Part shown: piece after piece, positions 730-7,942 of the stretch
Numbering within the stretch: position 1 is the first letter of the stretch
How the letters are laid out: every line of letters begins with the position of its first letter
Origin: Bugula neritina
Taxonomy: Eukaryota > Bryozoa > Gymnolaemata > Cheilostomatida > Bugulidae
Assembly: GCA_964035545.1 (NCBI GenBank)
Contig: OZ037773.1
Location: 7,119,251-7,183,250, forward strand
Direction: 5' to 3'
Length of the DNA stretch: 64,000 bases
The notes under the pieces: model-generated
The model's input: the letters and a program-made list of their open reading frames with translations, nothing else
Told to the model about the DNA's origin: nothing
Databases searched by the model: none
Position numbers and translations under genes: made by a program

Positions 730-2947
730 ATGATTACAGATAAGCTATTGACCTTACCAATTCATCTATGCCTAGTGCTGTTGTACATCCACCGTGTGGA
801 GTCTAGATCTACTCATCTTCCAAGGTATGTTTACTTTACCATACTTATTAGCTTTCTACTAGTTATTAGCTATTCTAGAATGTGCCAAGTTATGCAATAC
901 GGCTTCATATATTTATGTTACAGTTACAGTGTGTATCAATGCAGTTCTTAGCTTTATATAGAAAGTTTCTTTAGGTGAATAATTTATAGCTGAGAGCATA
1001 TTCTATGTGGTAGTTAGTATGTCTCAACAAGGTTTGCAGCTTGAAGTTTTCATATGTAATCTTATTGATAAAATAACCCTCTGCTTGTAAGACATCCCTC
1101 AGTCATTCTTCTACATTTTCCTTCTCTAATTTATTTCCATTGATAGTAGCATACTAAAACATAGACTGTCTTCTATAGTTACTATGGTTACCAAACATCG
1201 TATAACCCTAACATAAGGTCACTAGATACTAAATAAACTGTGCTTTAAAGCAGCTCAAAGCATTACTAGTCATGCTAGAAGCGCTGAAGCTGTCAGCTGC
1301 CAAAATTATGATATTTTGATGCTAATTTTAGTGTTCCTCAACAAAGGAAGTATCTGCCATTTTCTTGTCCAACTGATTTAACAGTATCCATCAACAAATC
1401 TCTAACCTTAATGAAGCAACTTAATCAAAACTACGTGGTAAGTATTTTTCTTTATTTTGAAGGGCGGAAAACTCCATTATGTTACAATGACAACTTTTTT
1501 ATTTCTACATAAACATTTTATGATTAACCATTACTTCAACTATTATATTAAAAGAAAATCTAATATTATTTTATCAAGTTTAAAAAAATATTGTCATTAA
1601 AGTTTACATGAGGAAAGTGCGATAGCCTTAATAGAATGTTCGGCATTCTTTTTTTAGTTATTATCCATGTTTTAGGCTCAGCACCTTTGTTTCGAAGCAC
1701 TCCAGAATCCAGTTGAAGTTATAAAGAATGTTACCTGCGGTCATTTTGATGTACGTTGTCACATCAGACTAATAATATATCTCAGTCACTCATCCTTTTC
1801 TTAAACTAGTAACTACATACATACATTATGTTGGCAGCATATTTACCTGCAAATAATATATTTACCTGCAAGCAATACATTTACCTGCATATAGGATGTT
1901 TACCAATCAGTAACACATTCATCTCAAAGTTTACATATCTGTGTGTAACAGACTTAATTTCAAGTAAATTAGGAATATTGTGCGTTCTTTTGGTTTTCAG
2001 TATGTAATCTACCAAGCTGATCTTGCCTCAGAGATCCACGGTCGTCTTTGCTTACTGGAGGCTGCATTTTCAAACAGCGATTCAAAGTTTCGCCAGTTCA
2101 AAAGATACATGACTGATATATTCGAAATGATTGCTTCTGTAGCCCCTAACGACTGTGACAAGAAACATTCTGTAAGTTACTGTAATTCCTTTTTTCTTTT
2201 CTAAACTCTTCCTGCTCTTGCTTATGCATTACATAAAATATTCTTATACAATAATAATTTTGTATGTTTCATCTCGAACAAAATTGTGTGTGTGTGTGTG
2301 TGTGTGGTGTGTGTGTGTGTGTGGTGTGTGTGTGTGTGTGTGTGTGTGTGTGTGTGTGTGTGTGTGTGTGTGTGTGTGTGTGTGTGTGTGTGTGTGTGTG
2401 TGTGTGTGTGTGTGTGTGTGTGTGTGTGTGTGTGTGTGTGTGTGTGTGTGTGTGTGTGTGTGTGTGTGTGTGTGTGTGTGTGTGTGTGTGTGTGTGTGTG
2501 TGTGTGTGTGTGTGTGTGTGTGTGTACTTTTACAGTGTTGAACAGTATTCTCTGCTATACATGGCTGTCCAGTAAATCTATGAATGCAATGTAAAATAGA
2601 GTGATTTGAGAAAAAAAGACTTATGTTTAAATATAGACTTACTAAACTTGATATCATCTTGATAATACAACTAACTTAAATCAATAGTAGCAATATTGCA
2701 GTTAAACCAAACATAGAAGACTGTGTAGTTCCCAAAGTACTCACACTGACCTGTTTTACAGGCTAGTCAAATGAAGGAGTTTAGCTATGAGTACGTGTAC
2801 ACCGAATATCTCATCCAGCTGTACACTGACCTCAAATGCACATTAGAAGCATGCAAGCAAGAAGGCAATTCTCAGATATTTGACTATTCAAAAGTATCTC
2901 TCACATCTGATCTGCCAGTATTTGTGAGGTGTGAGGACAGCGTCTAA
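730..2947 (+). CDS. Secreted eight-cysteine, four-helix cytokine-like protein, gene 1 (5 exons)
   Basis: Exons 730-824, 1332-1437, 1676-1750, 2001-2171 and 2762-2947 join into a 210-residue protein; introns are phase 2, 0, 0, 0 with GT/AG ends. Start 730 is chosen over the in-frame ATG at 697 because it gives a compact signal peptide: MITDK, then a hydrophobic LLTLPIHLCLVLLYI core, then HRVES. The mature part has eight cysteines (one in exon 2, two in exon 3, two in exon 4, three in exon 5) and N-glycosylation sites NKS and NVT. Four amphipathic helix-like stretches lie in exon 2 (one), exon 4 (two) and exon 5 (one). It ends FVRCEDSV, and AATAAA follows at 3104. Gene 2 has the same exon lengths and phases. 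The layout resembles vertebrate erythropoietin/IL-6-type cytokine genes; that is inference, because no sequence similarity to a named family was recognised. Confidence 0.72.
2284..2525. repeat. (TG)n microsatellite in intron 4 of cytokine-like gene 1
   Basis: About 240 bp of nearly pure TG dinucleotide, with two GGTG interruptions near its start, beginning about 110 bp after the exon 4 donor. The open frames here (Cys-Val or His-Thr repeats) are artefacts of the repeat. Confidence 0.97.
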
Positions 2948-5877: not shown

Positions 5878-7942
5878 ATGACAACTGCAAGCTATGAGTT
5901 TTTATTTCTACTTCACAGTGGGGAGTTGCCATCTTACTGCACTTTTCCGGTCATATTCAATCTGAATCGAACTCAATCACTCATCAAGACGCTCAACAGA
6001 CATTACATTGTAAGTTATAATCCTTTACACCAGCTTCACAATGGCTGGCATATCTTGGAACTTCAACTGGAGCATAAAATGGTGTTTATTGATTTACTTG
6101 TATATCTGAATTCTTTTTAATAAATAGGAACATAAAAAAGTACACACAAACCAGCAAGAAATCAATAGACAGTATAGCTTTACCACTTCATAGATTTAAA
6201 GTTTACTATTATATCAAGTAATAAAGCTTGATTTTCATCATTGATAACAGTGAGGAGTAGATAAAGAGGCACAAAAAGGCAATGAATTATAATACAATAA
6301 GCTATATAAAACTTTATAATGACAAATATGCTACAGTAAACTTAGAAATTACCCCTTGAACCTTAGTTTCGTTATATATGTATACTTGTGCTGTTACAGG
6401 CTCATTTCTTGTGCCCTGAACAAAACCACACTCTGGTGTACACTAACCGATCAATAGACTGCGCGAACTCAGAGGTAAGCTCATTCATTGGTCACCTTTC
6501 ACCGCCGTGGTCCTGCGCGGGTGGCGGGATTTATTGGATCATATTGATTACCATGGCGGGATTTATTGGATCATATTAAAGTTGCTATAGTCTATACTAC
6601 ATTTCCAGTCACAAAACATCATTGTTTGGCACTCATATGAATATAGTTACTACTTGCTAATGTGTATAGCTTCTTATAATCTCTTGAAGTATATCAATAA
6701 TTTGCAATTTAAACAACAATAAATCTAATGCAATGTTTTTTGATAGATAACTTATGTCATAACTTTTAAATATAAATAGAAAGTCAATCTGTGTTAGTTC
6801 ATCTGCATACTCATTGCCACATCTATCTAGTCCATGTCCTCTAACAACTACGCTTGAATTAATTTTCAATATAAACTTTATCCATTTCTCCTGACATCTA
6901 CTACAATATAATACATCCACAGCGTCCAAAAAAAGAACTGCTGTTTGTTTTTCTACTCAATGAAGTTGACCGTGCTTTAGGTGGTACACCCAGACACTTT
7001 ACCAGAGAAGTTAGATAGACACAGGTGTGCACTAAAACACTCGTATGATGTGTATCACATACAAACACGAAACCTAAACCACCGAATGTCTTATCTAACC
7101 AACAAACTCAAAACGGACAGTGCAACCAACTGTGAGAACTACTCCGAGGTAACGTTTATCTCCATGGTTATTATATATATGAATATTTATTCACATTGAG
7201 ATGACAACTTCCTTTTGAAATAGCTGAATCATAAAATTATGAAAGTATTATTGATTAATTTTGTTGCATTTACAGTCAGTCTGACTAATAAGTCTGCTTG
7301 CCTGCATGTAACTGCACATTGTTTAGTCGCTTAGCATGCTGTTTACTTGGTATTTCATGTCCAAAATAGTTATTCAAAATTTCTAAAATTGACCTATCCT
7401 TCTAAATTATTTTTTACTTTCAATTTCTATTTTGTGACAAGAGTCAAAATATTTTTAACATTCTTATTTAATGTACTTATATATGTCACAGCAATAGTTA
7501 TTTGAAGTTATTTCATTTAAAACTACACAAGGCATGCCTCAATAAATGCTCTTAAACTTGTGAAAAACTTATATGTGAGTCTGTTTTTGCTTTTTGAATA
7601 ATTAAAAAGTTGTCTGACAAAGACTATCCCTGAAGCAATTCAAGGACAGTTTTTTATTGAATTTTGTGGTGCACAAAAAAATTTTATTGTAAAAGCTAGA
7701 TTTTTCAAGTTTCAATTTTGAAATTACTGAAACCACACTGGTCACTAATTACTGTATAACTAAAATACAGTTTATATTATTGGAACCCAATATATACTTT
7801 GTAGATAAAACATGCGCCTTGCTTGACCACATACAACGACCACCTTATCAAGCTCCATGAAGACATTGCCTGCCTGTTGCAATCCTGTGGAAAAGTTTCC
7901 GACACTAAAATTAATACGTTTGTCCGCTGTGAGCCAAAATAA
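5878..7942 (+). CDS. Secreted eight-cysteine cytokine-like protein, gene 2 (tandem paralogue)
   Basis: Homologous exons are 5919-6009, 6400-6474, 6981-7148 and 7805-7942. They encode 30, 25, 56 and 45 residues, against 35, 25, 57 and 61 in gene 1, with the same intron phases. Shared anchors are LP..C in exon 2, A..LC.E and a second Cys in exon 3, R.C.L and a late Cys in exon 4, and LI.L..D..C.L..C followed by FVRCE in exon 5. It has the eight shared cysteines plus one extra in exon 5, and N-glycosylation motifs NRT, NHT and NRS. The 5' end is uncertain: an acceptor at 5918 mimics gene 1 and implies a separate signal exon that I could not find, while the ATG at 5878 reads straight through with only a weak hydrophobic FLFLL. 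AATAAA lies at 8074. Confidence 0.65.
6519..6578 (+). repeat. Short direct repeat in intron of cytokine-like gene 2
   Basis: The words GGCGGGATTTATTGGATCAT occur twice, about 36 bp apart, just after the exon 3 donor. This is a small local duplication. Confidence 0.85.

Follow-up and report, generated by a model that had tools for sequence, protein, structure and literature searches.

A six-gene tandem array with a common exon layout

We analyzed a stretch of 64,000 nucleotides from the bryozoan Bugula neritina (C9:7119251-7183250, hereafter the window; contigs are designated C1, C3, C5, C8, C9 etc.), in which two neighboring genes, gene 1 (g1) and gene 2 (g2), encode predicted secreted proteins. 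The tzBugNeri2.1 assembly of this species comprises 216.00 Mb in 9 chromosomes, and B. neritina is a complex of cryptic species (PMC11480708). The original prediction described g1 and g2 as a pair of fast-evolving proteins with the gene architecture of helical cytokines. The observation of both genes was confirmed as real: the exon lengths, the intron phases, the eight common cysteines (C1-C8) and the FVRCE ends are present in both g1 and g2, with exons 3-6 as claimed. The features of the two genes are listed below with their positions in the window and, where applicable, the means by which they were placed, such as hidden Markov models (HMMs) of the exons; a slash marks an exon-intron junction here and throughout.

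291..294, + strand: gene 1 coding exon 1, proposed mini-exon ATGC; donor gtaagt, phase-1 intron next; the only place in the 1 kb before exon 2 that fits ATGN/GT[AG]NG
740..824, + strand: gene 1 exon 2, remainder of the signal peptide, phase 2 end; acceptor cag/ATAAG, donor gtatgt
1332..1437, + strand: gene 1 exon 3, C1 and putative helix A, phase 0 end; HMM and helical moment
1676..1750, + strand: gene 1 exon 4, 25 residues, C2 and C3, A-B stretch; HMM
2001..2171, + strand: gene 1 exon 5, 57 residues, putative helices B and C, C4 and C5; HMM and helical moment
2762..2947, + strand: gene 1 exon 6, putative helix D, C6, C7, C8 and stop; HMM and helical moment; AATAAA/ATTAAA 144 and 156 bp past the stop
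4147..4150, + strand: gene 2 exon 1, proposed mini-exon ATGA; donor gtaagt; TATAWA 54-58 bp upstream
4535..4607, + strand: gene 2 exon 2, signal peptide, phase 2 end; exon modeling
5919..6009, + strand: gene 2 exon 3, C1 and putative helix A; HMM
6400..6474, + strand: gene 2 exon 4, 25 residues, C2 and C3; HMM
6981..7148, + strand: gene 2 exon 5, 56 residues, putative helices B and C, C4 and C5; HMM
7805..7942, + strand: gene 2 exon 6, putative helix D, C6-C8 and stop; HMM; AATAAA/ATTAAA 131 and 136 bp past the stop

A simple two-gene pair, as originally claimed, was rejected. Instead, g1 and g2 are the terminal two members of a six-gene tandem array on C9, and five further domains lie elsewhere in the genome. 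The g1 query gave three weak matches upstream of the window, and exon modeling at these places yielded the four upstream array copies, A-D (C9:7101657-7118623, same strand as g1 and g2). Outside the array, weak matches of g2 on C3 (E-value 0.066) and C5 (E-value 0.021) led to members E and F, and member E used as a query returned E2 and E3, which adjoin it on C3, as well as G on C8. Among six weak-match places that were inspected, two (on C3 and C5) were multi-exon copies and four were not; member F also gave a weak match at C3:6144457 (E-value 0.11). The family total is at least 11 domains across 4 contigs, a minimum because one weak place was left unread.

We assessed the likeness of the array members with leave-one-out HMMs built from the five other members. 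The held-out exons 3-6 beat the best background segment in 24/24 tests (4176 open segments), and the likeness of g1 and g2 therefore goes beyond chance. The corresponding HMM for the signal-peptide exon (exon 2) succeeded in 3/6 cases and failed for C, g1 and g2 (4176 segments). Exon HMMs run over the window and 30 kb upstream gave no match with an E-value below 0.01 outside the six array genes.

Translation is proposed to start in a four-base mini-exon

Six coding exons with intron phases 1-2-0-0-0 were found in all ten genes that have their own 5' end, the first coding exon in each consisting of ATG plus one base, and the three phase-0 introns are present in 11/11 domains. The original models had five exons. 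We rejected the ATG at 730 as the start of gene 1, which sits within the splice acceptor of intron 1 (ATGATTACAG/ATAAG), and propose 291 as the start instead, while gene 2 gained two 5' exons that had been missed earlier (4147-4150 and 4535-4607). Likewise, the signal peptide of g1 had been placed on a separate first exon; the hydrophobic N-terminus is indeed present, but it is carried by exon 2 (740-824) and preceded by the mini-exon (291-294). In the five array members other than g1, the signal-peptide exon begins at an acceptor, and in A, B, D and g2 there is no in-frame Met between the last stop and this exon.

For all six array genes, a search for short ATG exons with a phase-1 donor returned an upstream candidate made up of ATG, one further base and a donor. 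The pattern ATGN/GT[AG]NG occurs exactly once in the 1 kb preceding exon 2 in 9/9 genes tested, at a distance of 319-822 bp. Given a window background of 5 matches in 55 kb, this corresponds to P ~2.8e-10, a value that is indicative and to be treated with care because the pattern was fixed after the first six genes had been seen and because A and B are close duplicates. In the tenth gene, G, the mini-exon lies 241 bp upstream of exon 2. Furthermore, TATAWA occurs within 150 bp of the ATG in 8/10 genes (g1 and E being without it) versus 92/366 background bins; it is found at 81-83 bp in A-D, and D has another at 95. The last intron of gene 1 contains a TG repeat of ~120 units (98% match) at 2285-2525.

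Annotated Bugula proteins agree with most of the gene models

In a search of 5.8 billion proteins, the only relatives were two B. neritina 'hypothetical proteins', EB796_019007 (P0001) and EB796_016963 (P0002), one of them truncated; one such search returned P0002 but not P0001. Distant relatives would escape this search, which depends on 5-residue words in common. P0001 is identical to gene A in 77/85 residues over exons 1-4, and its N-terminus, MYK, is the mini-exon join as predicted; the frame of its last 25 residues differs from that of the modeled exon 5 of gene A. In P0002, the exon joins agree in two domains, and the N-terminus starts inside exon 2. The annotated proteins are 7-9% divergent from the present genome (77/85 and 334/359 residues identical). 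Annotation of the 2020 B. neritina draft relied on AUGUSTUS, guided by transcriptome hints (PMC7576161), and the annotated proteins are therefore an independent prediction, not direct transcript proof. Their support for the gene models is good but not complete.

The match to P0002 involves members E2 and E3 (C3:11159908-11166778, minus strand). The E2 stop lies within CA/GTAAAT, a possible phase-2 donor that could be spliced in frame to the first exon of E3, whose acceptor is also of phase 2. The joined product would comprise 362 residues, and 334/359 are identical to P0002. We found no 5' exons of E3's own at this locus. Because the E2 stop overlaps a possible donor joining E3, and because P0002 matches the joined product, we propose that the locus may produce both a one-domain and a two-domain protein, the choice perhaps being made by splicing.

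The proteins share eight cysteines and diverge rapidly

The eight cysteines are invariant in 11/11 domains, with 27-30, 13-16, 18-20, 34-38, 27-31, 4 and 13-37 residues between successive cysteines (D counted minus its SAEP repeat). The FVRCE end is not kept across the family, only its cysteine. A hydrophobic N-terminus on exon 2 was seen in 10/10 genes having their own 5' end (judged by eye from the sequence, with the signal peptide on exons 1-2). Directly before C1, the motif [KR][KR]S is found in 6/11 domains, as REKR/S in A and B (the slash here preceding the S), and N-glycosylation sequons are present in all 11 domains. Pairwise identity of the mature domains is 18-47% among the 11, except for A and B (73%), and the ratio of non-synonymous to synonymous substitution rates (dN/dS) between A and B is 0.39 (NG86) or 0.51 (YN00). 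By this ratio the two genes are constrained yet fast-evolving, and the rapid evolution that had been claimed for the family is borne out.

The loop between C7 and C8 varies in composition. In A and B it contains a His/Asp-rich run that might bind metal (C9:7104067-7104270 and 7109798-7110025), and in D it contains a SAEPESS-type repeat (C9:7118174-7118623).

Helix-like segments and database searches

The helical hydrophobic moments computed over six sequences have their maxima at g1 residues 43-67 (exon 3, putative helix A), 96-115 and 117-140 (exon 5, B and C) and 158-184 (exon 6, D). With a global shuffle of these sequences, helices A, C and D pass the 95% level (uncorrected for scanning) and B falls just short. 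With a within-exon shuffle of 11 sequences, the observed value was reached in 99/3000 cases for A and 3/3000 for C, both significant, while the exon-4 stretch (561/3000) and the tail (2612/3000) were non-significant. The helix-like stretches originally noted, one in exon 2, two in exon 4 and one in exon 5 in the old numbering, match these positions, and within their exons A and C are significant but B and D are not. An AlphaFold2 model of P0002 alone showed helices at A-D of both domains, with no confidence (predicted local distance difference test score (pLDDT) 36.8, predicted template modeling score (pTM) 0.20). At a pLDDT of 36-37, the AlphaFold2 models are unreliable on the fold.

Among the Pfam matches of 11 members (E-value up to 1) or of 6 members (E-value up to 10) there was no IL-6-type family. 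Membership in a Pfam or NCBIfam family was rejected, the best matches being ZrgA (0.0041), DUF4550 (0.019) and FxsC_Cterm (0.046), each to one member; the ZrgA match is probably a reflection of the His/Asp-rich tail. Pfam curated cut-offs were compared for g1 only, and both g1 matches lie below them. The best match to PDB sequences (E-value 0.03, a Plxna3 chain) was judged to be chance, and a second PDB search had a best E-value of 0.52. A fused-length query of the 5.8 billion proteins returned 0 of 6535 candidates at E-values up to 10.

Other elements in the window and the assembly

Several tandem repeats accompany the two genes in the window. A unit of 73/79 bp is repeated ~75 times in tandem at 14870-20598. 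Translated by eye, its minus strand resembles a C2H2 zinc finger that includes a TGEK linker, but the unit length is not divisible by three. Tandem units of 152 bp at 23347-24876 and 26141-26526 read KCKLCFYKNIHNPKKVYKHSRSVHKR on the minus strand, C2H2-like by eye; long open frames cross several copies in shifting phase, and one such frame had no Pfam match. Three copies of a 233-nt segment lie ~1 kb apart at 9938-12191, the later two being 68% and 89% identical to the first. Pieces of neighboring genes comprise a sulfatase piece at 37786-38265 (+ strand) and pyruvate-carboxylase-type pieces (PYC_OADA, HMGL-like) at 59505-60487 and 61584-61889 (- strand), with minisatellites nearby. Elsewhere in the assembly, most of the protein-kinase matches listed on the small contigs (C11 and above) carry in-frame TAA or TAG but few TGA codons, as would be expected of a ciliate-type code. 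They are probably ciliate DNA remaining in the assembly.

Interpretation

Established here are the gene structures, by comparison, the hydrophobic N-terminus, the cysteine pattern and the size of the family. Our preferred reading, held tentatively and just short of an even chance, is that g1 and g2 belong to a bryozoan multigene family whose products are secreted, helical and work like cytokines or growth factors; the cytokine interpretation of the original prediction is in this respect partly supported. That the family is homologous to class I/II helical cytokines, a true branch surviving in Bryozoa with the ancestral gene architecture, is a further claim that we regard as somewhat unlikely.

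In the mechanism that we propose, each family protein would be synthesized with a signal peptide and secreted, and roughly half of the members would lose a short propeptide by cleavage at the basic site just before C1. The mature chain, tied by four disulfides, would form a compact bundle of some four helices and act extracellularly on a surface receptor. STAT_bind matches on C4 and C5 lie above the curated cut-off, and because such STAT-domain matches are present, this receptor could possibly feed JAK/STAT signaling. Repeated tandem duplication together with fast divergence would then have given rise to a set of related ligands, one of them apparently with two domains.

A number of results weigh against the cytokine-like reading. 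No match to any cytokine was found in Pfam, NCBIfam, PDB sequences or the 5.8 billion proteins. The within-exon shuffle of 11 sequences reached the observed moment in 412/3000 cases for helix B and 379/3000 for helix D, both non-significant, and the AlphaFold2 model of two aligned P0002 pieces (pLDDT 36.1, pTM 0.30) shows, with no confidence, helices at A, B and C but strands near D. Three successive phase-0 introns are weak evidence alone because phase-0 introns are common, and most class I cytokines have fewer than four disulfides. The search for short ATG exons also listed others, many in a TG-rich stretch far upstream of gene A and some in A, and longer ATG-exon candidates occur in D (in frame with the mini-exon) and in g2. 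Within 800 bp upstream of the six array genes there was no excess of kB, STAT, AP-1 or ISRE sites. On the receptor side, profile searches with IL6Ra-bind and Jak1_Phl gave no match, but the controls (prokaryotic ones for IL6Ra-bind) were equally silent, so the absence of receptor and JAK is not established. No class I receptor was found (class II receptors were not looked for), and no Domeless-like receptor turned up in the receptor-domain searches whose controls were silent. A G-x-WSxWS-like pattern was rarer than its control (401 versus 543 places); 11 WSXWS-like loci inspected by eye, among at least 100 places listed, comprised seven of thrombospondin type, two short fragments and two without a match.

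A tandem, fast-diverging, cysteine-rich secreted family could also consist of helical, disulfide-rich effectors, for example antimicrobial or anti-predator proteins, that are engaged in an arms race and bind microbes or membranes outside the cell, and the variable tails between C7 and C8 (the His/Asp-rich run of A and B, the SAEPESS-type repeat of D) would suit such a role. However, the proteins are large for disulfide-rich effectors as generally known, no Pfam or NCBIfam family is matched by more than one member, and a strict gene structure divides the helix-like units; we consider this explanation unlikely. The fast evolution and duplication, and the absence of an excess of immune-type promoter sites, would likewise accord with a reproductive, brood-chamber or allorecognition signal or pheromone with a helical fold rather than an immune cytokine, for which the reported co-option of cytokines in salamander reproductive tissues provides a vertebrate precedent (PMC8904931). 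We hold this to be quite unlikely; no sequence feature points to gametes or embryos.

The proteins might, moreover, adopt another helical disulfide fold that is not an up-up-down-down four-helix bundle, in which case the cytokine-like layout would be a coincidence of common phase-0 introns. The lack of a profile match, the extra phase-2 intron, the eight cysteines, the non-significant moments of B and D and the strands near D in one low-confidence model are all in line with this. Nevertheless, the layout, with a very short first exon and three phase-0 introns between helix-like units, recurs in 10/10 genes with their own 5' end, and the helix-like segments sit where a cytokine layout predicts them, so that such a coincidence seems to us decidedly improbable.

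Few invertebrate ligands of JAK/STAT-type receptors are known outside insects. If the family is a true branch of the class I/II helical cytokines, it would supply the ligands so far lacking for a JAK/STAT-type system in Spiralia, with at least 11 domains including one two-domain ligand, and the cytokine layout would be older than the split between protostomes and vertebrates. In the excerpts of a 2026 survey drawn on here, IL6 is placed in vertebrates only, IL6R is traced to molluscs with the molluscan ligand left open, Upd and a lectin-type ligand are named for insects and crustaceans, respectively, and the word Bryozoa is absent (PMC13203501). The question of the molluscan ligand would become testable with a family of spiralian ligands whose genes have a cytokine layout. 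Even if its members are not cytokines, this is a fast-expanding secreted family for which the search of 5.8 billion proteins returned only the two Bugula 'hypothetical proteins', and among the matches listed from open-licence literature (titles and starts of abstracts) on bryozoan cytokines and spiralian helical ligands, none names it.

Comparison with known systems

The claimed parallel in gene layout to EPO, IL-6 and G-CSF holds, and is reinforced, for the tiny first exon with its phase-1 intron and for the phase-0 introns between A, the A-B stretch, B+C and D, but not for the extra phase-2 intron and the eight cysteines. The first intron of the IL-6, EPO and G-CSF genes we take to be of phase 1. 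The exon layout is suggestive and is not proof of homology to cytokines. More broadly, the family is like the long-chain class I cytokines (IL-6, G-CSF, EPO and growth hormone, with their layout as generally known) in having a short first exon and phase-1 intron followed by phase-0 introns that separate the putative helix A, the A-B loop, the putative helices B and C, and the putative helix D. It differs from them in that a phase-2 intron is added past the signal peptide, the putative helices are shorter, the disulfides probably number four and there is no sequence match. IL-4, SCF, CSF-1 and FLT3L are short-chain cytokines with several disulfides and helices of ~15-25 residues. They are similar to the Bugula proteins in size and helix length, and their disulfides tie the N-terminus, the A-B loop and the C-terminal tail, whereas the number and spacing of their cysteines differ and there is no sequence match.

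Among invertebrate systems, insect Unpaired (Upd) and its receptor Domeless would be comparable if the Bugula ligand is a secreted invertebrate ligand of JAK/STAT type, in view of the STAT-domain matches in Bugula; no Upd-like sequence was among the database matches, with sensitivity limited to shared 5-residue words. The oyster protein CgIFNLP is likewise a claimed cytokine-like protein of a spiralian (PMC8218723); it was not returned by the database searches and is compared by description only.

Helical cytokines are hard to link by sequence even to each other, and in the case of type III interferons confidence was raised by considering gene structure; the six IL-10 family genes, IL3, IL21 and IFNL1 have a common five-exon layout in which no codons are split (PMC2654155). 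IFN-upsilon was recognized in unannotated intergenic DNA by the combination of a signal peptide, helices and five coding exons with phase-0 introns between them (PMC8863823). The present family differs from these class II helical cytokines (IL-10 family, IFN-lambda and IFN-upsilon) in its eight invariant cysteines, in a fold that is putative and in the lack of a sequence match, and resembles them in its signal peptide, its phase-0 introns between putative helices and its gene clusters (PMC2654155, PMC8863823). The gene features by which IFN-lambda and IFN-upsilon were recognized are present in the Bugula family, except that its first two introns are of phase 1 and 2.

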